A stretch of 64,000 bases of DNA from Clostridiales bacterium (GTDB lineage: Bacteria > Bacillota > Clostridia > Caldicoprobacterales > UBA3941), in contig JAAYGY010000002.1 in assembly GCA_012735575.1 (NCBI GenBank), positions 1 to 64,000 of the forward strand, in the 5' to 3' direction. Each line of letters begins with the position of its first letter. Within the stretch, counting starts at the first letter, position 1. This document shows, piece by piece, positions 25,478-57,894 of this stretch. Position numbers and translations under genes: made by a program. The notes beneath the pieces were generated by a model. It made no database searches. It saw only the letters and a program-made list of their open reading frames with translations, and was not told the origin of the DNA.

Positions 25478-25512
25478 TTTCCTTTATGCCACTAGAAAAG
25501 TAGGGCAGAAGA

Positions 25513-25556
25513 AAAACCGAACATTATTTGAGAATATCAAAAAAATGTTCAAAAAA
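25513..25556 (+). promoter_or_regulatory. Inverted PurBox pair upstream of purC
   Basis: AAAACCGAACATT (25513-25525) matches the PurR operator consensus AWWWCCGAACWWT. The second, inverted box AATGTTCAAAAAA (25544-25556) keeps GTTC but has AA for GG. The two are 18 bases apart and sit just before the promoter, the arrangement used by the Bacillus-type PurR repressor. No purR gene is in the window. Confidence 0.8.
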
Positions 25557-25559
25557 TCA

Positions 25560-25587
25560 TTGACATTCGTATACATTGTGCTATCAT
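25560..25587 (+). promoter_or_regulatory. Sigma-A promoter of the purine operon
   Basis: TTGACA (25560-25565), a 16-base spacer, and TATCAT (25582-25587). Directly downstream of the PurBox pair. Confidence 0.8.
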
Positions 25588-25609
25588 TAAGATATGAAAA
25601 CAATAATTG

Positions 25610-25782
25610 GCTCATATAAATCTAAATCTCAATCGTAAAATATTAACTATGAGCGAAAGCGTACCTGGGGTTGTGGGCAATTAGTCCTGTCAGGTTAATG
25701 GAGTAAGGATATTATCTTTTGATAGTATTACACCTAAGAAAAAACCCAGTCGGGTAGGTTTCGCTTGCCTACTAGACTGGGT
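25610..25782 (+). promoter_or_regulatory. Decayed purine riboswitch leader of purC
   Basis: The P1 arms GCTCATA (25610-25616) and TATGAGC (25648-25654) enclose only 31 bases, against 55-59 in the two related elements in this window. The core GTTTCTAC (J2/3) and P2 are missing, while CGTAAA from loop L3 (25634-25639) and the C before TATGAGC remain. The downstream platform is kept: AGCGAAA after P1, and a hairpin ACCCAGTC (25744-25751) / GACTGGGT (25775-25782) with TTTCGCT in its loop. It ends in ATAATAATTT rather than a U-run. Probably a nonfunctional remnant. Confidence 0.65.
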
Positions 25783-25807
25783 ATAATAATTTCTAAGAGG
25801 TGATATT

Positions 25808-26494
25808 ATGGAATTGGTATACAAGGGAAAGACAAAGGATATATACAAATTAGAAGATGGCAACTATATTTTTAAATTTAAAGATGATGTGACAGGAGAG
25901 GATGGAGTATTTGACCCAGGAGGGAATACTGTAGTATCAAAGGTTGAGGGTATGGGAAAATCAAACTTAAGAGTTACTAAGTTTTTCTTTGATAAGTTGA
26001 AAGAGTTGGGTATTCCTACGCATTATATAGATGCAGATCTAGATAACAATACTATGACTGTAATGCCTGCAAAGCTGTTTGGTAAAGGTGTTGAGGTAAT
26101 ACTTAGATATAGAGCTGTAGGCAGTTTTATCCGACGCTATGGTGCCTATGCAAAGGAAGGGCAGCATCTGGATGGATATGTTGAAGTCACTTTGAAGGAT
26201 GATAAGAGAAAGGACCCCTTGATTACAGAAGATGGCCTTGTGATGCTTAACATAATGACAAGGGATGAATATAAGACGATCAAAGAGCTGACCAAAAGGA
26301 TTGCCCAAGTAGTAAAGGACGAGCTTGAAAGAAAGGGAATGGAATTGTACGATATAAAGTTTGAGTTTGGAAGAATTGGTGAGGACAACCATATAGGCCT
26401 TATTGACGAGATTTCTGGTGGAAATATGCGAGTTTATAAGAATGGAGAATATGTAGAACCTCTTGAGCTGGAAAGATTAATGTTTGGAGATTAG
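25808..26494 (+). CDS. purC: SAICAR synthase (phosphoribosylaminoimidazole-succinocarboxamide synthase)
   Basis: Joins CAIR and aspartate with ATP. It has YKGKTKDIYKLEDGNYIFKFKDD at the N-terminus, VILRYRAVGSFIRRYG, DPLITED and the C-terminal LIDEISGGNMRVYKNGE (in place of the usual GDEISPDxxR). It is 228 residues, somewhat short of the usual ~235-240. ATG 25808 follows AAGAGGTGA. It is the first gene of purC-L-E-F-M-N-H-D. The SAGNMR for SPDxxR change at the substrate end is noticeable, but the rest of the family core is present. Confidence 0.9.
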   Translation: MELVYKGKTKDIYKLEDGNYIFKFKDDVTGEDGVFDPGGNTVVSKVEGMGKSNLRVTKFFFDKLKELGIPTHYIDADLDNNTMTVMPAKLFGKGVEVILRYRAVGSFIRRYGAYAKEGQHLDGYVEVTLKDDKRKDPLITEDGLVMLNIMTRDEYKTIKELTKRIAQVVKDELERKGMELYDIKFEFGRIGEDNHIGLIDEISGGNMRVYKNGEYVEPLELERLMFGD

Positions 26495-26505
26495 TTGAAT
26501 GTTTT

Positions 26506-26578
26506 GCTCATATAAGTCTCATAATAGGGTTGGGACGTTTCTACAAAATGACCGTAAATCATTCGGCTATGTATGAGC
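26506..26578 (+). promoter_or_regulatory. Variant purine-riboswitch-like aptamer inside the operon, before purL
   Basis: P1 arms GCTCATA (26506-26512) and TATGAGC (26572-26578) enclose GTCTC/GGGAC (P2), J2/3 GTTTCTAC (26537-26544), AATGA/TCATT (P3) and L3 CCGTAAA (26552-26558). A GGG in L2 can kiss CC in L3. Deviations from the guanine consensus: J1/2 reads TAAGTC instead of TAATC, and the 3' side has an extra TATG between GGC and P1. Ligand specificity cannot be read with certainty. Confidence 0.72.
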
Positions 26579-26599
26579 GAAACTATACCTGGAGGTTCT

Positions 26600-26645
26600 A
26601 ACCCAGTTGTGTAGGTTTCGCTTAATCTATTCAGCTGGGTTTTTG
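26600..26645 (+). terminator. Riboswitch-linked terminator before purL
   Basis: AACCCAGTTG (26600-26609) pairs with CAGCTGGGTT (26632-26641), followed by a U-run. Its loop has GTTTCGCT, which is complementary to AGCGAAAC just after P1 (26576-26583), giving a mutually exclusive antiterminator: ligand-bound P1 favours termination. Confidence 0.75.
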
Positions 26646-26693
26646 TTTATGGTGAGGATAACGGGTTATAAAACTACTAAGGAGGAGTAGAGC

Positions 26694-29600
26694 ATGAGAA
26701 GAATATTGATTGAAAAAAAGAGCACTGCTAATTCAGAGGCAAAGGAATTATACGCTGAATTTAAGGATTATCTAGGCATTAAAAGTCTTGAGGGCCTTAG
26801 AGTTATTAATTCATACGAAGTATATGGTGCAAGGGATGAGGAAATAGATAAAATTGTTGAAATGGTTTTATATGAGCCAGCATTAGACCTCCTATATGAA
26901 GACATGCCTCCTATCGGAAAAGCTGAAAAAGCCTTTAGAGTAGAAAATATTAAAGGGCAGTATAATCAAAGAGAAGCTGCAGCAAATGAATTAGTCAAAA
27001 ACTATCTTGGTTTTGAACAAGTAAAGATTCAGCATTCAAAGTATATAATCCTCAAAAATATATCAGACACAGATCTAGAAAAGGCAAAAGCATATTATAT
27101 TAATCCTACAGAATCAAGAGAAATTCCCCTTGATAAAGAGAGCTATATAGAAGAAGAGGACATAGGCGATGATGTGGAAATTGTTGAGGGCTTTATAGAT
27201 ATGAATGAAAAAAATCTGGAAAATCTCCTTAAAACAGTTGGACTAGCCATGGATTTGAAAGATTTGCAATTTTGTCAGGAATATTTTAGGAATATTCAAA
27301 GAAATCCAACTGTTACAGAACTAAAAGTAATAGATACCTATTGGTCTGATCACTGTAGACACAAAACTTTTAATACTGAAATAATCAATATGGAAATAGA
27401 GGAAGGCAAATTAAGGGAAGTATTTGAACAGGCATTAAAGGAATATTTAGCATCTAGAAAATATGTATATGGAGATAATCCCAAACCTGTAACCCTAATG
27501 GATATGGCAACTATAAACATGAAAGAAATAAAGAAAAAAGGGCTGCTGAAGGATAAGGAGGAAACGGATGAAGTAAATGCTGCATCCATAGAAGTGGATG
27601 TGGATTGCAATGGAAAGACTGAAAAATGGCTTTTGATGTTTAAAAATGAAACCCACAACCATCCTACAGAAATAGAGCCTTTTGGTGGCGCAGCCACATG
27701 TTTAGGTGGTGCCATAAGAGACCCCTTGTCCGGAAGGGCATATGTTTATCAGGCTATGAGAATAACTGGTGCTGCAGATCCAAGGTACAAATATGAGGAT
27801 ACTATACCTGGAAAACTGCCTCAAAGACAGATAACCCGAACTGCTATGGAAGGATATTCATCTTATGGATATCAGATAGGAAGTGCTACAGGGTACGTTA
27901 ATGAGTACTATCATGAGGGTTTTGCTGCAAAGAGGATGGAATTAGGTGCACTGGTTGCTGCTGTGCCAAAAGATTGGGTGCTAAGAGGCTCTCCTGAGGC
28001 AGGAGATTTGGTCATTCTGATAGGAGGACGGACAGGAAGGGATGGGATTGGTGCTGCTGTAGGCTCGTCAAAGGAGCATACTGAAGAGGCTTTAGGAAAA
28101 AGTGGTACAGATGTGCAAAAAGGTAATCCTTTAGTGGAACGAAAGATAGTAAGACTTTTTAGGAACAAAGAGACAACAAGGCTTATAAAGAAATGCAACG
28201 ATTTTGGTGCTGGAGGCGTTGCTGTTGCAGTAGGAGAGCTGGCTGACGGGTTAAAAATTGATTTGGATATGGTTTCCCTAAAATATCCTGGACTTAAAGA
28301 TTGGGAAATTGCTATCTCTGAGTCCCAAGAGAGAATGGCAGTATTAATAGACAGGAATAACCTGGATAAGTTTATGAAACTTGTAGAGAGTGAGGACCTT
28401 GAGGGCGCCGTAGTGGCAGAGGTAACAGATGATAGCAGGGTCACAATGACCTGGAGAGGCAAAACTGTATTAGATTTAGACAGCGACTTTTTAAACAGCG
28501 GAGGAATTAGAAATAAAGCAGAGGTAAGAGTTCAGTTACCAAATGAGGATATATACCTAAAGGGGGATCCAGAATATATCAGGGATGGAGACTTAAAAGG
28601 AAATTTCCTTAGAAATATAAGTGATCTCAATACTGCTAACCAAAAAGGATTAATAGAGAGGTTTGACAGTACCTATGGTTCAGGAACAGTTTTAATGCCC
28701 TTGGGAGGGAAAAACAATATAACACCTCAGGAGGGTATGGTGGCCAAGCTACCGGTATTAGACGGAAAAACAAGTACTTGCTCCATAATGACCTGTGGTT
28801 ATGATCCAAGCCTATGCCAATGGAGTCCTTTCCATGGGGGTTACTATGCAGTTATAGAGTCATTGTCAAAGATAGTGGCTTTAGGAGGGGATTTCAGAAA
28901 GGCGAGACTAACCTTCCAGGAGTATTTTGAAAGATTGGGCGATGATCCAACAAAATGGGGGAAACCTTTTTCCGCCTTATTAGGAGCCTTTATTGTTCAA
29001 AAGAATTTGGATATACCGAGCATTGGCGGAAAGGATAGCATGAGCGGTACTTTTGAAGATTTAAACGTACCTCCTTCGCTTATAAGCTTTGCTGTAGTTA
29101 CAGAAGATGTAAAAAATATTATATCTAGAGAGTTTAAGAAAACTGACTCCCAAGTGGTAGTTATAAATTTAGAAATTGATGAAAATGGTTTAATAGATTT
29201 TGAAGAGCTTAAGAAAAATTATACCAGAATAAAAGAATTAGTGGATAAAGGCATTGTATTATCAAGCTCTGTGGTAAAGTTTGGCGGTATAGCAAGAAGT
29301 ATTTCAGAAATGGCTTGCGGTAATGGAATCGGATTTGAATTTGATAACAATATACTAAGCAGGATATATAAACCCCTGTATGGATCAATTGTATTGGAGA
29401 TAGAGGAGAAAGAGGCTGTAGAAGCCCTTCTTGATGGAATAAGCTACTCAATAGTTGGAAGAACTACAAAAAAAGAAGAGATTAGCTTAGGCCAGGTTTC
29501 CATTAGCCTTAAGGAAATTATGGAAAAATGGCAAAGCCCCCTTGAGGATGTATTCCCTATTTATGAAGAAAAAGTTCAAACAAAGGAAATTCTATATGAT

Positions 29601-30401
29601 GGAGGAAACAGGATAAATAAACCAACAGGCTTAAATATAGCAAAGCCAAAGGTTTTAATACCTGTATTTACAGGAACTCATGGTGAATATGACACTGAAC
29701 TGAGATTTAAGGAAGCCGGCGCAGAGGTTGAGACCGTTGTGTTTAAGGGTTTAACTAGGGACAAAATAGAAGACTCCATAGATGAATTGGCAAAAAGAAT
29801 AAGCCAGTGCCAGATATTGGTCTTTGCTAATGGATTCATTCTGGGCAATGAACCTGAAGGAGCAGGAAAGCTAATAAACATACTATTTAATCATCCAAGG
29901 CTTAAGGATGCTTTAAATAATCATATTTCCACAAAGGATGGCCTAATTTTAGGCATTGGTAGCGGGCTAAATGCTTTAATTAAATTAGGGCTTATAGAAA
30001 AGGGATGTGTATCAGGGCAAGATGAAAATTCAACATCTATCACATCAAATTTGTGGGGCAATTTTATATCCACAATAGTAGATGTAAAAGTAGTATCAAA
30101 CCTTTCCCCCTGGATGAGTGGAATGAATGTGGGGAATATTTATTCAGTACCTGTTGCCACAAGGGAAGGCAGGATAATCTTAGGTAAAGAAGATTTGACA
30201 GCCAAGGGCCAAGTTGCGACTCAGTTTGTAGATATTAATCCCACAGGTTCGGATTTGGCCATAGATGCACTTACCAGCCTAGATGGAAGGGTATTAGGAA
30301 CTGTAAGCTTAATAGACAGGATTGGAAAGGATATTTATAAGAATGTACACATAAAAGGCGTACACAATATATTTAAGGCTGGAGTTAAATATTTTAACTA
30401 G
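26694..30401 (+). CDS. purL: Single-chain FGAM synthase with inactivated glutaminase domain
   Basis: Converts FGAR to FGAM with ATP and ammonia. At 1235 residues it is the long, one-chain form. The synthase core is intact: WSDHCRHKTFNT, HNHPTEIEPFGGAATCLGGAIRD, GRTGRDGIGAAVGSS, and the second ATP half. The C-terminal class I glutaminase (from about 985, PKVLIPVFTGTHGEYDTEL) has lost its catalytic residues. LG(I/V)CNG is LGIGSG with G1089 for the Cys, and the His-x-x-Glu of HPER/GHSER is L1206-I-D1208-R. GGFSYGD is ANGFILGN, and SHGEGR is ATREGR. The fold is retained, perhaps structurally. It starts at ATG 26694 after AAGGAGG. Confidence 0.93.
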   Translation: MRRILIEKKSTANSEAKELYAEFKDYLGIKSLEGLRVINSYEVYGARDEEIDKIVEMVLYEPALDLLYEDMPPIGKAEKAFRVENIKGQYNQREAAANELVKNYLGFEQVKIQHSKYIILKNISDTDLEKAKAYYINPTESREIPLDKESYIEEEDIGDDVEIVEGFIDMNEKNLENLLKTVGLAMDLKDLQFCQEYFRNIQRNPTVTELKVIDTYWSDHCRHKTFNTEIINMEIEEGKLREVFEQALKEYLASRKYVYGDNPKPVTLMDMATINMKEIKKKGLLKDKEETDEVNAASIEVDVDCNGKTEKWLLMFKNETHNHPTEIEPFGGAATCLGGAIRDPLSGRAYVYQAMRITGAADPRYKYEDTIPGKLPQRQITRTAMEGYSSYGYQIGSATGYVNEYYHEGFAAKRMELGALVAAVPKDWVLRGSPEAGDLVILIGGRTGRDGIGAAVGSSKEHTEEALGKSGTDVQKGNPLVERKIVRLFRNKETTRLIKKCNDFGAGGVAVAVGELADGLKIDLDMVSLKYPGLKDWEIAISESQERMAVLIDRNNLDKFMKLVESEDLEGAVVAEVTDDSRVTMTWRGKTVLDLDSDFLNSGGIRNKAEVRVQLPNEDIYLKGDPEYIRDGDLKGNFLRNISDLNTANQKGLIERFDSTYGSGTVLMPLGGKNNITPQEGMVAKLPVLDGKTSTCSIMTCGYDPSLCQWSPFHGGYYAVIESLSKIVALGGDFRKARLTFQEYFERLGDDPTKWGKPFSALLGAFIVQKNLDIPSIGGKDSMSGTFEDLNVPPSLISFAVVTEDVKNIISREFKKTDSQVVVINLEIDENGLIDFEELKKNYTRIKELVDKGIVLSSSVVKFGGIARSISEMACGNGIGFEFDNNILSRIYKPLYGSIVLEIEEKEAVEALLDGISYSIVGRTTKKEEISLGQVSISLKEIMEKWQSPLEDVFPIYEEKVQTKEILYDGGNRINKPTGLNIAKPKVLIPVFTGTHGEYDTELRFKEAGAEVETVVFKGLTRDKIEDSIDELAKRISQCQILVFANGFILGNEPEGAGKLINILFNHPRLKDALNNHISTKDGLILGIGSGLNALIKLGLIEKGCVSGQDENSTSITSNLWGNFISTIVDVKVVSNLSPWMSGMNVGNIYSVPVATREGRIILGKEDLTAKGQVATQFVDINPTGSDLAIDALTSLDGRVLGTVSLIDRIGKDIYKNVHIKGVHNIFKAGVKYFN

Positions 30402-30412
30402 GAGGGTCTAAA

Positions 30413-30895
30413 TTGAAGGTAGCTATTGTTATGGGAAGTTTATCCGATAGAGACTTAGGAAATAAGGTGACAGGAATACTAGATAAGTTTGGAGTGGACT
30501 ATGAAATAAGGGTCATATCGGCTCACAGAACACCTCACACCGCCTTTGAATTTGCAGAAAAGGCTGAAGTGAGAGGAATTGAAGTCATAATAGCCATTGC
30601 TGGTAAAGCGGCTCATTTAGCTGGAGTAATAGCTGGTATTACCCACCTTCCGGTAATAGGCATTCCAGCAAAATCTTCAACAATGGATGGATTAGACTCC
30701 CTTTTATCTGTTGTTCAGATGCCAAAAGGGGTTCCAGTGGCAACGGTTGCTATAGATGGAGGAGAGAATGGTGCTCTTTTGGCAGTCCAAATGCTGTCTT
30801 TGAAATATCCGGAGCTAAAGGAAAAATTAAAGGCGTATAAAATGGAACTGGCAAAAGACGTGGCTGAGATGGATAAAACCATCCAAGGAAAATAG
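30413..30895 (+). CDS. purE: N5-carboxyaminoimidazole ribonucleotide mutase (PurE class I)
   Basis: Isomerises N5-CAIR to CAIR. MGSLSDRDLG, SAHRTPHTAFEFAE, IAIAGKAAHLAGVIAG and LLSVVQMPKGVPVATVAIDGG are the PurE signatures; the class I His is in SAHRTP. The 160-residue length is normal. No purK (needed with class I PurE) is in the operon, so it is elsewhere or absent. TTG 30413 has GGAGGG 6 bases upstream. It follows purL after 11 bases. Confidence 0.94.
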   Translation: MKVAIVMGSLSDRDLGNKVTGILDKFGVDYEIRVISAHRTPHTAFEFAEKAEVRGIEVIIAIAGKAAHLAGVIAGITHLPVIGIPAKSSTMDGLDSLLSVVQMPKGVPVATVAIDGGENGALLAVQMLSLKYPELKEKLKAYKMELAKDVAEMDKTIQGK

Positions 30896-30906
30896 GAGGG
30901 AATGTA

Positions 30907-32241
30907 TTGAGTGGAATTATTGGAATGTATAGCCCTAACAGAACAGATGCATCCCAAATTGCCTATTATGGTCTTTATGCACTGCAGCATCGAGGACAGG
31001 CCAGTACTGGTATAGCAGTTAACAACTATGGATTTATTGATTACCATAAGGGTCAGGGATTAGTCAACGAAGTCTTTCCAAAGGATGTAATAGAAAGGCT
31101 TATGGGCAATATTGCCATAGGCCATGTAAGGTATGCTACAGGCCAGGACAGCAAGGATAAGAACAATGTAGAACCCCTGGTGGTAGGCTATAGAAAAGGA
31201 GCTCTAGCTCTTTGTCTTGATGGAAGTATTACAAATGCAAAAGCACTAAGGGATGATTTAGAGGATAAGGGCGTAATATTCCAAAGTACTTTAGATGCAG
31301 AAGTCATTGCCAACCTAATAGCAAGGTATCATAAGGATAGACTGGAAGAGGCTATTATAAGAGCCATAGATGATATAAAAGGGTCCTATAGTATAGTGAT
31401 GATGAATGCCAACAGCCTGATTGTTGCAAGGGATCCCCATGCCTTAAGACCTATGGTATTAGGCAGGGTAAAGGAGGGATATATTGTAGCCTCTGAAACC
31501 TGTGCCTTCGATACTATAGGAGCAGAGTTTATAAGAAATATTAAGGCTGGTGAAATGATAGTCATAGATGAAAAAGGGGTAAGGACTGTTCAAGAAAAGA
31601 AAGGAAAGATCAGCCACTGTCTGTTTGAATTCATATACTTTGCAAGGCCAGATAGTTATGTGGACAATAGAAGTATATATACAGCTCGTATTGAAATAGG
31701 AAGACAGCTAGCCAGAGAAAGCCCCGTTGATGGAGATATTGTTATTGGTGCACCAGATTCTGGAATAGTATCAGCCGTTGGCTATGCCGAAGAATCCCAA
31801 ATTCCCTATAGGGATGGTTTAATTAAAAACAGGTATGTAGGCAGAACCTTTATTGAGCCAACTCAAGAATTAAGGGAACAGGGAGTAAGAATAAAGCTAA
31901 ATGTCTTAAAGGATAATGTAAATGGAAAAAGGGTTATATTGGTAGATGATTCTATAGTAAGAGGAACGACAGTTAAGAGGATTATAGAATTATTGAAAAA
32001 AGCTGGTGCCAAGGAGGTTCATGTCAGAATAAGCTCGCCTCCTGTAACCCATTCCTGCTATTTAGGCGTGGACACTCCAAATGAAGAATTTCTAATGGCA
32101 AAGGGCATGACTGTAGAGGATGTTAGAAGGAAGCTAGGAGCTGATTCTTTATACTATATTTCTTTGGAGGGGCTTATGAAGGCAATTGGAGGAGATGACG
32201 GATTTTGTACAGGCTGCTTTACAGGAGGGTATCCGGTGTAA
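30907..32241 (+). CDS. purF: Amidophosphoribosyltransferase lacking its catalytic cysteine
   Basis: First step of purine synthesis: PRPP plus an amino group gives phosphoribosylamine. The N-terminal Ntn glutaminase normally exposes a Cys after removal of Met (MCGxxGI). Here the start reads MSGIIGMYS: Ser2 replaces Cys, encoded AGT. The oxyanion-hole HNGN is LDGS at 104-107 (D105 for Asn). LQHRGQ and GHVRYAT are kept. The phosphoribosyl half is normal (VILVDDSIVRGTT). The four 4Fe-4S Cys positions (SHCLFEF, THSCYLG, FCTGCFT) are all present. TTG 30907 is fixed by GGAGGG 6 bases upstream. Likely ammonia-dependent. Confidence 0.93.
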   Translation: MSGIIGMYSPNRTDASQIAYYGLYALQHRGQASTGIAVNNYGFIDYHKGQGLVNEVFPKDVIERLMGNIAIGHVRYATGQDSKDKNNVEPLVVGYRKGALALCLDGSITNAKALRDDLEDKGVIFQSTLDAEVIANLIARYHKDRLEEAIIRAIDDIKGSYSIVMMNANSLIVARDPHALRPMVLGRVKEGYIVASETCAFDTIGAEFIRNIKAGEMIVIDEKGVRTVQEKKGKISHCLFEFIYFARPDSYVDNRSIYTARIEIGRQLARESPVDGDIVIGAPDSGIVSAVGYAEESQIPYRDGLIKNRYVGRTFIEPTQELREQGVRIKLNVLKDNVNGKRVILVDDSIVRGTTVKRIIELLKKAGAKEVHVRISSPPVTHSCYLGVDTPNEEFLMAKGMTVEDVRRKLGADSLYYISLEGLMKAIGGDDGFCTGCFTGGYPV

Positions 32242-32331
32242 TTATAGCATATTAAACAAGCATATTATGGTGACAGAGCAATAGCCGTTTAAATAGCAAA
32301 GAGGCTAAAATAAGAATAAAGAGGTGTTAAT

Positions 32332-33360
32332 ATGTCTCTAACATATAAAGACGCGGGAGTTAATAAGGAGTCTGGGTATAAACAAGTTCAGCTAATAAAA
32401 AAGTTTATTAGCAAAACCTATACTCCGGGAGTTATATCGGACATTGGGGGGTTTGCTGGACTTTTTCAGCTGGATACCAAGGCTTATGAAGAACCAATTT
32501 TGGTATCGGGAACCGATGGAGTGGGCACAAAGCTAAAAATTGCTTTTATGATGGACAAACACGATACCATTGGGCAAGACTGTGTTGCCATGTGCGTCAA
32601 CGATATTTTATGCCAGGGCGCCAAACCTCTGTTTTTCCTGGATTATATTGCTACAGGCAGACTGAAGCCAGAAAAAATGGCAAAAATCGTTGAAGGGGTC
32701 TCCAACGGATGTGTAAAGGCAGGATGTGCATTAATTGGGGGAGAGACAGCCGAAATGCCTGGCTTTTATAACGATGAAGAGTACGATATAGCCGGTTTTT
32801 GTGTAGGCATTGTTGATAAAAAAAATCTAATAACAGGTGCCAACATAAAGGAGGGAGATGTTATCATAGGGCTTCCCTCAAGTGGAATTCACAGCAACGG
32901 ATATTCTCTAGTGAGGAAAATTGTATTTGATAAGGAGAAAATGGATGTAGATTCCTATGTACCTGAACTAGAAACAACTTTAGGAGAAGAACTGCTCAAG
33001 CCTACTAGAATATATGCAGATGTTATTATTGAGTTAGCAGGCAAGTTCAATATAAAAGGAATTAGCCATATTACAGGGGGCGGCTTTATAGAAAACGTAC
33101 CTAGAATGCTTCCACAAGGTTTAACTGCCTATATGGATGTAACCGTAATCCAAACTCCGAAAATATTTAATATGATACAAAAATGGGGACAAATTGAAAC
33201 CACTGAAATGTATGGAACCTTCAACATGGGAGTCGGAATGGTACTAGTTGTAGATAAGAAAGAGCTGACAGCAATAGAAGAGCACCTGAAACATAAGAAT
33301 GAAAAGTACTATGTGCTTGGGGATATAAGAAGGGGTAGTGAAGGAGTAGTACTATGGTAA
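32332..33360 (+). CDS. purM: AIR synthase (phosphoribosylformylglycinamidine cyclo-ligase)
   Basis: ATP-dependent ring closure giving AIR. The N-terminal SYKDAGV-type start is here TYKDAGVNKESGY. DGVGTKLKIAF, ECVNDILCQGAKPLFFLDY-type VAMCVNDILCQGAKP, LIGGETAEMPGFY and GISHITGGGFIENVPRML are the PurM signatures. It is 342 residues. The 3' end overlaps purN by 7 bases. ATG 32332 follows AAGAGGTG. Confidence 0.95.
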   Translation: MSLTYKDAGVNKESGYKQVQLIKKFISKTYTPGVISDIGGFAGLFQLDTKAYEEPILVSGTDGVGTKLKIAFMMDKHDTIGQDCVAMCVNDILCQGAKPLFFLDYIATGRLKPEKMAKIVEGVSNGCVKAGCALIGGETAEMPGFYNDEEYDIAGFCVGIVDKKNLITGANIKEGDVIIGLPSSGIHSNGYSLVRKIVFDKEKMDVDSYVPELETTLGEELLKPTRIYADVIIELAGKFNIKGISHITGGGFIENVPRMLPQGLTAYMDVTVIQTPKIFNMIQKWGQIETTEMYGTFNMGVGMVLVVDKKELTAIEEHLKHKNEKYYVLGDIRRGSEGVVLW

Positions 33361-33977
33361 ACATAGGGGTGCTTATTTCTGGAAATGGGACTAATTTGCA
33401 GGCTATTATTGATGGCATAGATAGAGGAATTATTAAGGGAAAGATACAGGTGGTTATATCAAACAGGAAAGATGCCTTTGGCCTTATAAGAGCAAAGAAA
33501 GCCAATATTGAATCTTTGTACATAGATCCTGCAGGCTGTGATGCCGCTGCTTATGATCAAAAAATATTATATGAGCTAAAGAAAAGAAATGTAGATCTAG
33601 TAGTGTTGGCAGGCTATTTAAGGATATTATCAAAGGAGTTCATAGAAGAGTATAAAAATAGAATCATAAACATACATCCATCTTTAATACCAAGCTTTTG
33701 CGGCAGAGGATATTATGGGGATAGGGTCCATAAAGCTGTGCTTGACTACGGAGTAAAATATACTGGTGCTACTGCCCACTTGGTAGATGAAGGCACCGAT
33801 ACAGGGCCGATTATACTTCAGGAAGTGGTGAAGGTAGATGATAATGATAGTGTGGAGACACTGAAAGAAAAGGTTCTTGAAGTAGAACATAGCATTTTGG
33901 TACAGGCAGTAAAATTGTTTTGTGAAAACAAACTGTCTATAAAAGGAAGATTAGTAAGTATAATAGATGAGGAGTGA
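33354..33977 (+). CDS. purN: GAR transformylase (formyl-THF-dependent)
   Basis: Transfers formyl from 10-formyl-THF to [16 protein letters not shown], the catalytic Asn/His in INIHPSLIP, and the Asp in [13 protein letters not shown] are all present. The loop [15 protein letters not shown] replaces the usual FPGKG(F/Y)YG. It is 207 residues. It starts within the last codons of purM, suggesting coupled translation. Confidence 0.94.
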
Positions 33978-33982
33978 GGATA

Positions 33983-35509
33983 TTGAAAAGAGCATTGATT
34001 AGTGTTTTTGATAAGAGAGGAGTAGTGGATTTTGCAAAGGAGCTGACCGATTTAGGTTGGCAGATAATATCTACAGGGGGTACTTATAAAGAGCTAAAAA
34101 ATGCTGGAATAGATGTTTTAGAAGTTGAAGAGATTACCGAGTTTCCCGAAATATTAAACGGGAGAGTTAAGACTTTAAATCCATACATCCACGGAGGAAT
34201 ACTCTATAAAAGAGATGACAAGGATCATGTAAAAACATTAGTAGATATGAATATATCCTCTATAGATATGGTGGTAAACAACCTATATCCTTTTGAAGAA
34301 ACAATGCTAAAAGGGAAGAACCATGAGGAAATAATAGAAAATATAGATATAGGCGGACCCTCCATGATAAGAGCTGCAGCCAAAAACTATAAGCATGTAA
34401 CAGTTATAATAGACCCCGAAGACTATTCTAAAGTATTATCAGAGCTTAAAGAGAATAATGATACCAGTCTGGGAACTCGTCTATACCTGGCAAGAAAAGT
34501 CTTTAACTACACTGCTTATTATGATTCTCTCATATCTAAATATTTTAATGAGCTAGAAGAAGTTGAATTTCCTGATTTTATAACATTAGGATATAAGTTA
34601 ATGGATAACTTAAGATACGGTGAAAACCCTCACCAAAAAGCAGCATTTTATGTTAGCCCAAATCCACCAGAGGGAAGTATTGCGTTAGGTAAAAAACTTC
34701 ATGGAAAGGAATTGTCCTTTAACAATATAAACGATGGAAATGCTGCTATAGATATGGTAAAAGAGTTTGATGAGCCTACTGTTGTGGCAGTTAAGCATGC
34801 AAATCCATGTGGTATAGGCAGTGGAAATAACTTATTAGAAGCCTATTTAAAAGCCTATGAGTGTGATAAGGAATCTATATATGGTGGAATAATTGCTACA
34901 AACAGAGAAGTTGATGAAGATGTTGCCAAGGAAATGGCCAAGATATTTTTAGAAGTAATCATATCACCTTCTTTCACCGAAGAGGCTTTAGCTGTATTAA
35001 CTAAAAAGAAAAACTTAAGGCTTATAGAACTGGGGACTCTTAAGAAAGAAGATAAGGATATAGAAGTTAAGAATATATCAGGTGGTATTTTGATTCAGGA
35101 TAAGGATATAGTTAACCTTTTAGATGATGTGAAAGTAGTGACTGAAAGAAAGCCAACTGAAAAGGAAATGAAAGACCTAATCTTTGCCTGGAAGGCTGTT
35201 AAACATTTAAAATCCAATGGAGTTGTTATCGCTAAAGATAAGGCTACCATTGGCATAGGTGGAGGCGAGGTAAACCGATTCTGGGCAGTACAAAATGCTG
35301 TGGAAAGAGCAAAGGAAAAGATAAAAGGAAGTGTTTTGGCTTCTGATGGATTTTTCCCATTTAAGGATTCCGTTGAGTTGCTGGGACAATCAGGAGTAAC
35401 TGCTATAATACAACCTGGTGGCTCCATTAGAGACCAAGAAACAATTGAAGAAGCAAATAAACATAATATTGCCATGGTGTTTACCGGTATAAGACATTTT
35501 AAACACTAG
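33983..35509 (+). CDS. purH: Bifunctional AICAR transformylase / IMP cyclohydrolase
   Basis: Last two steps to IMP. The cyclohydrolase half has [44 protein letters not shown] (Asn for the usual His after KTL) and [19 protein letters not shown]. The transformylase half has [13 protein letters not shown] and [11 protein letters not shown] with the Lys-His pair. The consensus SAFGGIIA is here [14 protein letters not shown] start at 33983 is chosen because GAGGAG (33969-33974) is 8 bases upstream; a GTG at 33974 would sit on that site. It overlaps no gene but follows purN closely. Confidence 0.93.
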
Positions 35510-35521
35510 GGGGTATTAAGA

Positions 35522-36772
35522 GTGAAAGTACTAGTTGTAGGCAGTGGAGGAAGAGAACACACATTATGCTGGAAAATTGCCCAGTCACAAAAAGTAAAGA
35601 AAGTTTACTGTGCACCTGGCAATGGAGGCACAAGGCATGTCGCAGAGAATGTTGGTATAAAAGCAAATGATATAGAAGGATTACTAGAATTTGCACTAAA
35701 AACCAAGATTGATTTAACAGTAGTAGGTCCTGAGGAACCACTGGTATTGGGAATCGTTGACAAGTTTCAGGAAAAAGGGCTTAAAATATTCGGGCCTGAT
35801 AAAAAATGTGCAAGGTTAGAAGGCAGTAAGAGTTATGCCAAGGAGTTTATGAAAAAATATGATATACCAACGGCAAAATATGAAACCTGTTATAGTTTTC
35901 AGGAAGCTTTTAACGCATTAAATAGTTTTTCATATCCCTTGGTAATTAAGGCGGATGGGCTATGTGCAGGAAAAGGCGTAGAAATAGTCGACACAAAGGA
36001 AGATGCATTAAGAATACTTGAAGAAGTATTAGTAAGCAAGAAATTCGGAGAGCAGGGAAGCAAGGTAGTCATAGAAGAGTTTTTAGAAGGCACTGAAATG
36101 TCCTTGCTATGCTTTGTTACACAAAATACAATAATACCTATGGAAAGTGCAAAGGATTATAAGAAAATCTATGAAGGGGATTTAGGGCCGAATACAGGAG
36201 GGGTAGGCGCCTTCTCTCCAAGTCCTTTGCTTACCAATGAATTAGACAAGAGAATAAGGGAGGAAGTACTCGATAGAATAGAGTATGGCCTACATAGAGA
36301 AAATTTAAGCTTTAAAGGCATACTATACGTGGGTCTTATGATAGTAGAGGGTAAACCTAAAGTTTTAGAGTTTAATGTAAGATTTGGAGATCCGGAAACT
36401 GAGGTTCTGATTCCTAGACTTGAATCGGATATAGTTGAGCTTTTTGAAAAAACCATAGATTCATCACTAAAGTCTTCGGATATAAAGTGGAGCCAGCAAA
36501 GCTGTATAACTGTAGTGTTAACTTCAGAAGGCTATCCTGGAGAATTCAATAAGGGTTTTGAGATTCATATAGATGATAGCCTGGATAAGGATATAATCCT
36601 ATTCCACAATGGAACCAGATATGAAAAGGGTAGGTTATTAACCGATGGAGGAAGGGTATTATCTGTTACAGCTTTAAGTAATTCCTTAAAAGAAGCCAGA
36701 GAAAAGGTATTCTCAAACATAAACAGGATAAGTTTTGAGGGAAAGTGTTACAGAAGAGATATTGGTGAATAG
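35522..36772 (+). CDS. purD: GAR synthetase (phosphoribosylamine-glycine ligase)
   Basis: ATP-grasp ligase making GAR from phosphoribosylamine and glycine. VVGSGGREHTLCWKIAQS, VVGPEEPLVLGIVDKF, YPLVIKADGLCAGKGVEIVD, VVIEEFLEGTEMSLL, GPNTGGVGAFSPSP and FNVRFGDPETEVL are diagnostic. It is 416 residues. GTG 35522 follows AGGGGG. It ends the operon; a PurBox pair and promoter for the permease follow. Confidence 0.95.
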   Translation: MKVLVVGSGGREHTLCWKIAQSQKVKKVYCAPGNGGTRHVAENVGIKANDIEGLLEFALKTKIDLTVVGPEEPLVLGIVDKFQEKGLKIFGPDKKCARLEGSKSYAKEFMKKYDIPTAKYETCYSFQEAFNALNSFSYPLVIKADGLCAGKGVEIVDTKEDALRILEEVLVSKKFGEQGSKVVIEEFLEGTEMSLLCFVTQNTIIPMESAKDYKKIYEGDLGPNTGGVGAFSPSPLLTNELDKRIREEVLDRIEYGLHRENLSFKGILYVGLMIVEGKPKVLEFNVRFGDPETEVLIPRLESDIVELFEKTIDSSLKSSDIKWSQQSCITVVLTSEGYPGEFNKGFEIHIDDSLDKDIILFHNGTRYEKGRLLTDGGRVLSVTALSNSLKEAREKVFSNINRISFEGKCYRRDIGE

Positions 36773-36871: not shown

Positions 36872-36888
36872 AACTATGTGACAAGTAG

Positions 36889-36959
36889 CACTCATATAAT
36901 CCTGATAATTGGTTCAGGAGTTTCTACCAGGCAGCCGTAACTGCCAAAGGCTATGAGTG
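36889..36959 (+). promoter_or_regulatory. Purine (guanine-type) riboswitch aptamer
   Basis: P1 arms CACTCATA (36889-36896) and TATGAGTG (36952-36959); J1/2 TAATC; P2 CCTGA/TTCAGG; J2/3 GTTTCTACC; P3 GGCAG/CTGCC; L2 TTGG able to kiss L3 CCGTAA. The base before TATGAGTG (position 74 equivalent) is C, which specifies guanine or hypoxanthine rather than adenine. AAAG before GGC is a small insertion in J3/1. Confidence 0.9.
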
Positions 36960-36998
36960 AATTGTATGATATTGTAGAGCTTTTAAGCTTTCCAATAT

Positions 36999-40887: not shown

Positions 40888-40925
40888 CTTTCGCCATACT
40901 TGTAGAAATAACAAGTCCTACGAAA

Positions 40926-41098
40926 GCAGTTAGCTCTCCATCAAATTAATATTTGATGACAATCCTAGAGTTATTTACCCTAGGACCAAGGTATAAATTG
41001 CGGATCTTTATACCTTTCGGCATCTTTTCCTTTAGGTTCCTTCAACGAATTCCGCCTTCTCCGGTAACTTACTCATAAAAGATGCACCTCTAAACTGC
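40926..41098 (-). promoter_or_regulatory. Lysine riboswitch (L box)
   Basis: Read on the minus strand, the element begins with GCAGTTTAGAGGTGC and ends with GGAGAGCTAACTGC, giving P1. Conserved L-box blocks in order: AGAGGTGC, GAGTAA, GAAGGAACCTAAAGG, GATGCCGAAAGG, GGTCCTAGGG, and GTCATCAAAT...ATTTGATGGAGAGCTA. It precedes asd-dapB, so lysine should shut off these genes by termination. Confidence 0.93.
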
Positions 41099-41150
41099 AT
41101 TTGGATATGAAAACTAAACTTGTTTTATAGAGTTAGTTTGTTTTCAATTT

Positions 41151-57635: not shown

Positions 57636-57894
57636 TCATATCAATGTGATGATGAAGAGGAGTACATTTTTAAGGCCGACAGAAAAGGAAATCCGCTGGC
57701 TGAGAGGTTTCCCCGGTTCAAGAAAATGGAAGGTCGCTTCTGAACATTTCAGCTGAAATGTAAGTAGGCTGGAACGCTAATCCCGTTAAAGATTTTGAGC
57801 GTTTGCTTATGTATTGTATACTACTATATAAGCAAAAAACAAGGTGGTACCGCGGAGTCTTACGTCCTTGTCCTTAGGATGTAAGGCTTTTTTT
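57636..57894 (+). promoter_or_regulatory. T-box leader (valine-type)
   Basis: Stem I (GATGAAGAGGAGTAC to GGTCGCTTCTGAAC) is followed by stem II/III, the T-box sequence AAGGTGGTACCGCGG at 57841-57855, and a terminator (CTTACGTCCT 57859-57868, AGGATGTAAG 57876-57885, then TTTTTTT). GTC (Val) at the specifier position in GAAGGTCGCTTC fits the downstream valS. The specifier base positions are inferred. Confidence 0.9.

Follow-up and report, generated by a model that had tools for sequence, protein, structure and literature searches.

The gap between purC and purL in a purine biosynthesis operon of a Clostridiales bacterium raises the question of whether a riboswitch lodged inside the operon has acquired a different ligand or a different set point. 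The window analyzed here covers 64,000 nucleotides of a draft genome that totals 2.59 Mb over 105 contigs. It carries the gene order purC, riboswitch, purL, purE, purF, purM, purN, purH, purD and a permease-like gene, and the purC leader, the pur genes and the parts of the riboswitch described below lie on the plus strand. purC (25808..26494) has TIGR00081 as its best NCBIfam match at 118 bits, below the cut-off of 189.9; purL, encoding a single-chain FGAM synthase (26694..30401), is the first gene downstream of the riboswitch and matches TIGR01857 at 1519.6 bits, and the six genes from purE to purD (30413..36772) all have NCBIfam matches above cut-off. A consensus promoter scan found no promoter of purL's own within the purC-purL gap. 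A reading made from the sequence alone had proposed that changes in J1/2 and J3/1 alter the ligand specificity of a purine-riboswitch-like element before purL, and that its internal position gives it control of purL-D and not of purC.

The element is real. When every Rfam family was searched against the full window, the element matched Purine (RF00167) at 62.4 bits (E 1.9e-8; gathering cut-off, 37 bits), far above chance, and the sister genome (G001) carries an ortholog in its own purC-purL gap. As a purine-riboswitch attenuator inside the operon, it is placed to control purL to purD, but not purC. The sequence-only reading starts the element at 26506, where the canonical P1 (26506-26512) begins; P1 can be extended to 26501, and the resulting 5' arm GUUUUGCUCAUA (26501..26512) forms up to 12 pairs, including one U.G, with the 3' arm UAUGAGCGAAAC of the uninterrupted register identified by folding (26572..26583), or else a bulged alternative. 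The extended P1 starts ∼6 bases past the purC stop codon (26492-26501), as it does in the sister genome, and a ribosome finishing purC could mask the P1 5' arm, coupling translation to attenuation. P1 is followed by J1/2 UAA (U22, A23 and A24; 26513..26515), P2-L2 (GUCUCAU-AAUAGGG-UUGGGAC, 26516..26536), a fully canonical J2/3 GUUUCUAC (G46 to C53; 26537..26544) and P3-L3 (AAAAUGA-CCGUAAA-UCAUUCG, 26545..26565), in which L3 CCGUAAA occupies 26552-26558 and the base of P3 has two mismatches (A54.G72 and A.C). J2/3 and L3 are thus as the sequence-only reading gave them. In the covariance model alignment, J3/1 (26566..26567) consists of G73, where A is usual, and C74, the C that specifies guanine; the sequence directly 3' of this GC is UAUGUAUGAGCGAAAC.

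Several observations bear on whether the ligand pocket has changed. First, a covariance model was used to align 148 purine aptamers drawn from the window, from its relatives and from the class to which it belongs. The set comprises 68 rows from 64 sources and another 80 from as many class places; these 80 were picked from high in the class match list, so that strong scorers are over-represented and weaker or unlisted matches fall outside the set. Loci repeating a place already in the set were excluded, and L040, a distinct place, is also outside it. Positions 20-22, 46, 47, 49-52, 75 and 76 are invariant in all 148 aptamers, while 23 is not; position 53 carries C in 146 of them and position 74 in 142. 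The window riboswitch has the common letter at every invariant position and at C53 and C74. Second, the ligand-contact nucleotides U22, U47, U51 and C74 (C for guanine), as named in PMC3764141 and PMC9295807, are all intact. Third, J1/2 has no insertion. The sequence-only reading had taken it as TAAGTC instead of TAATC, but neither the Rfam nor the covariance model R2 alignment requires an insertion, and we exclude one: the supposed extra G is position 25, miscounted as junction, which pairs with C45 (26536) as the first pair of P2 in a two-sided swap of the common U25-A45. Pair 25-45 is U-A in 80 of the 148 rows and G-C in 19, and A at position 73 (117 rows) gives way to G in 23 rows and to U in 8, which leaves A73 to G unsupported as a specificity change. 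Thus, two of the three peculiarities of this aptamer are common, because G25-C45 and G73 recur at these frequencies among its relatives, and the proposed change of specificity through J1/2 and J3/1 is not supported for a pocket that is canonical. At the purC-purL gap, Rfam also gives Purine and not 2'-dG-II (RF03165). On this evidence, the window riboswitch is not a specificity variant and is predicted to recognize the ordinary ligand.

The third peculiarity, the duplicated TATG of the sequence-only reading, is real and lies in the 3' P1 arm: the tandem UAUG (UAUGUAUG, 26568..26575) offers two alternative 3' partners to the P1 CAUA and is absent from the sister-genome ortholog. Four extra bases at this place occur in only 1 of the 148 aligned aptamers, that of the window riboswitch, and L040, the place outside the set, also has no P1 insertion. 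The genome is in 105 contigs and the insertion is seen in one genome only, both of which would fit an assembly error in a draft genome hiding an ordinary guanine riboswitch; however, a clean tandem duplication of four bases is atypical of short-read errors, and we regard this explanation as scarcely credible. The R2 covariance model assigns the four bases to J3/1, between C74 and U75, which counts against reading them as a bulge in P1. Such an extended J3/1 (GCUAUG) could be the working register of a true specificity variant that reads another purine or nucleoside, in the manner of the xanthine-II and guanine-II aptamers, which carry J3-1 and J2-3 insertions according to Hamal Dhakal et al. 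2022 (PMC9295807). We nevertheless consider a specificity variant highly improbable. The J2-3 insertion of two or one nucleotides by which that paper defines these classes is absent from GUUUCUAC, and U51, which is G in xanthine-II, is retained; the uninterrupted register can pair U22 and A23 as well, which would destroy the pocket; the downstream genes are those of de novo purine synthesis, as for guanine-I; and the sister ortholog is without the insertion. Moreover, that paper gives guanine-II a Kd for guanine of about 8 nM or better despite its J3-1 insertion, so that such insertions need not alter the ligand.

The sequence-only reading also described a terminator with a mutually exclusive antiterminator, and both are confirmed. 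The terminator stem CCCAGUUG/CAGCUGGG (26602-26639) is followed by UUUUUGUUU; together with its U tract, the intrinsic terminator spans 26600..26648, with a hairpin energy of −19.4 kcal/mol and the tail TTTTTGTTT. The antiterminator, checked at 12 pairs, joins GCGAAACUAUAC (26577..26588), which overlaps P1, to GUGUAGGUUUCGC (26609..26621), which lies within the terminator hairpin, and GCGAAAC is common to the P1 arm and the antiterminator. In the mechanism that we propose, transcripts initiated upstream of purC would run into the purC-purL gap, where bound guanine, or a similar purine like hypoxanthine, would keep P1 closed; GCGAAAC would then be unavailable to the antiterminator and transcription would terminate before purL. 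Without ligand, the antiterminator would form and purL to purD would be transcribed. The UAUG duplication would add a second P1 register, probably shifting the set point rather than the ligand.

The relatives suggest where this leader came from. The sister ortholog in the purC-purL gap is a guanine-only leader (62.2 bits), and the purC leader of the same genome is an intact tandem guanine-PRPP riboswitch (77.8 and 62.7 bits). A genome of the same family (G002) has an intact tandem before what we read from the locus as purE (77.5 and 66.5 bits), and in Schnuerera sp. xch1 the purC-purL gap itself holds, before purL, a tandem whose guanine half scores 82.3 bits and whose ykkC/PRPP half scores 60.6 bits. 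In each of these tandems, the second aptamer was recognized with RF00442, the ykkC/guanidine-I model, whose cut-off of 63 is exceeded by the G002 aptamer only; the PRPP label rests on the tandem arrangement, in which a guanine aptamer accompanies it upstream of pur genes, as PMC5912903 describes. RF00442 matches in two further genomes (G003 and G005) were below the cut-off and were not used; no pur leader was confirmed at either locus, and both loci read as having an ilvB-like frame. A protein search of genome contigs with purC gave 137 relatives, of which 80 loci were kept; among the 20 of these 80 whose leaders were run through Rfam, only one (L050) has purine riboswitches. In the window, RF00442 has no match in 25500-26700 (E up to 5) or elsewhere in the genome (E up to 0.001). 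Both purL leaders keep ACCUGGAGGUUCU beside CCAG (CCAGUU); in the alignment with the tandem copies, these match the edges of the PRPP aptamer on either side, and its interior is missing. The window purL riboswitch therefore looks like a descendant of a tandem guanine-PRPP riboswitch that has, by this alignment, lost its PRPP half.

The leader of purC (25610..25781) appears to be the other copy in a decayed state. It aligns over its full length with the sister tandem except for a 23-base gap that takes out P2 and the start of J2/3, and it shows many changes in the PRPP core. It retains P1 (25610-25616/25648-25654), the antiterminator arms and the hairpin (25745-25781), while P2 is lost, the core of the PRPP aptamer is altered and there is no U tract. 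Rfam found neither a guanine nor a ykkC aptamer in it at E up to 5, and the R2 model with filters off recovered only the P1 remnant, at 17.5 bits. The U tract is missing from the purC leaders of both the window genome and its sister (tails TATAATAATTTCTA and TATAAGATTTTCTA) and is present in G002, Schnuerera and both purL leaders. Upstream, at 25517..25587, lie CCGAACATT and AATGTTC, which we take to resemble PurR boxes, and a promoter TTGACA-16-TATCAT that matches at 11 of 12 positions; the genome encodes PurR above cut-off (363 bits). Because both aptamers have decayed, the U tract is missing, and a strong promoter, PurR-like boxes and a PurR gene are present, the promoter is probably the sole point of control for purC, and purL-purD are probably controlled by this promoter and the guanine attenuator. 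The sister genome shows this in part the other way round: both aptamers are present in its purC tandem, while its purL copy has a C.A mismatch in P2 as well as C53 changed to U, a letter seen at this position in no other of the 148 rows. With two genomes, this is a suggestion of reciprocal decay and nothing firmer. Altogether, a two-part switch appears to have been duplicated here: the purL element of the window would be the half that survives of one copy, and the copy before purC has decayed.

What the duplication does to the surviving half can be approached through folding. When the P1 CAUA pairs with the first UAUG (register A), the geometry of the pocket is kept at the cost of a 4-base bulge; when it pairs with the second UAUG (register B), P1 is uninterrupted and the pocket is lost. 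The P1/P2/P3 frame in which U75-A76 pair with A21-U20 is thus possible through the bulge, and a higher stability is predicted for the other register. With the core held and the transcript extending to the antiterminator, the ViennaRNA ensemble energies were −32.4 kcal/mol for register B, −29.4 for the antiterminator and −23.4 for register A, all nearest-neighbour values that exclude tertiary contacts, ligand and kinetics. For the sister ortholog, which lacks the duplication, the same energies were −25.6 kcal/mol for the antiterminator versus −23.0 for P1. In this model, the sister purL leader is an ordinary default-ON switch, and the energies suggest that the window leader leans toward termination without ligand. 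The property most likely to have changed would therefore be sensitivity and not the identity of the ligand; with two P1 registers, of which the one that breaks the pocket is predicted to be stabler, the switch may plausibly have become weaker or changed in sensitivity. The switch might be partly locked OFF or weak in binding.

These energies also fit a harsher outcome, in which the duplication has wrecked the switch: P1 would close uninterrupted without ligand or pocket, leaving a ligand-blind partial terminator that is decaying like the purC copy. The model favors register B by ∼9 kcal/mol over the pocket-preserving register and by ∼3 kcal/mol over the antiterminator; the duplication is confined to a single row of the alignment; in this genome, the purC copy has decayed; and the sister purL copy carries its rare core change and its mismatch in P2. 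However, every pocket position is intact, which is unexpected for a decaying copy, the pocket-preserving UAUG emerges first, so that co-transcriptional binding may precede formation of the rival register, and a terminator fixed ahead of seven purine-synthesis genes would be costly. We consider a wrecked switch unlikely. More speculatively, the UAUG tandem could be a two-register P1 in which guanine captures the first-emerging, pocket-preserving register, and the stronger, ligand-blind register closes P1 anyway, so that a single 4-base duplication would have produced a kinetically gated leader with default termination. We hold this doubtful, and we know of no report of kinetic gating with default termination in the purine riboswitch class. 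The reading that we prefer, to which we assign a probability of roughly 75%, is that of a guanine-I OFF attenuator within the operon, with guanine as the predicted ligand, descended from a tandem that lost its PRPP half and probably altered by the duplication in its set point rather than in its ligand.

In comparison with known systems, the window riboswitch shares with guanine-I (RF00167; Bacillus subtilis xpt type) the three-way junction, J1/2, J2/3, L2-L3 and C74, as well as a terminator/antiterminator platform and predicted control of purine synthesis genes; it differs in the UAUG duplication in the 3' P1 arm, G73, G25-C45, the mismatched base of P3 and its position between operon genes. 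Its guanine aptamer, antiterminator and terminator align with the intact tandems of its relatives, which are of the guanine-PRPP type described by Sherlock et al. 2018 (PMC5912903); unlike these tandems, the window purL leader has no PRPP aptamer and would have guanine as its only input, and in the purC copy both aptamers have decayed. With xanthine-II and guanine-II (PMC9295807), it shares only that it can be read as having extra J3/1 bases; the J2/3 insertion is lacking, U51 is kept, and both the genes and the lineage are different. Among open-licence papers searched for riboswitches in purL leaders, shifts of the P1 register and decay of tandem riboswitches, no title or abstract described this arrangement.

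Other riboswitches were seen in the course of this analysis. A whole-genome Rfam search returned two Purine matches, the element in the purC-purL gap and one at 36872-36973 (70.3 bits), which precedes the permease-like gene 3' of purD; this gene is without an NCBIfam match and is named from a reading of its protein sequence. Both genus members have a permease-leader aptamer with G73 and 2-3 extra bases near P3/J3-1, namely this one and that of L045 (899-1000). Each of the five intact aptamers in the genus thus has G73, but the window's decayed purC copy has A there. One U is inserted in the P3 3' strand near J3-1 in a subfamily that comprises L033 (1633-1707), L035, L036, L038, L039, L040, L041, L043, L044, L027 and L026; A23 is also changed to U in L027, L033, L035 and L041, and the clear cases lie upstream of genes that read as NCS2-like permeases. 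L035 scores 38.6 bits with the 2dG-II model, below its cut-off of 60. At L033 828-1600 (G008), we read a purD-like fragment directly after a purine aptamer, in place of the aptamer's own expression platform. The window also holds a lysine riboswitch on the minus strand (40923-41100; 124.1 bits) and a T-box leader on the plus strand (57640-57872; 117.6 bits), both from Rfam.

Most likely, purL-E-F-M-N-H-D are under a predicted guanine-responsive OFF attenuator, and purC is left to a PurR-type promoter. PurR of Bacillus responds to PRPP. Together with their relatives, these leaders look like a natural series in which a two-input RNA logic gate was copied and dismantled, from the intact tandem (Schnuerera, G002 and the purC leader of the sister genome), through a tandem that lacks the PRPP half (the two purL leaders), to the decayed tandem (the window purC leader). 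The value of each input thereby becomes testable in a setting where a PurR-type repressor may already act at the promoter.
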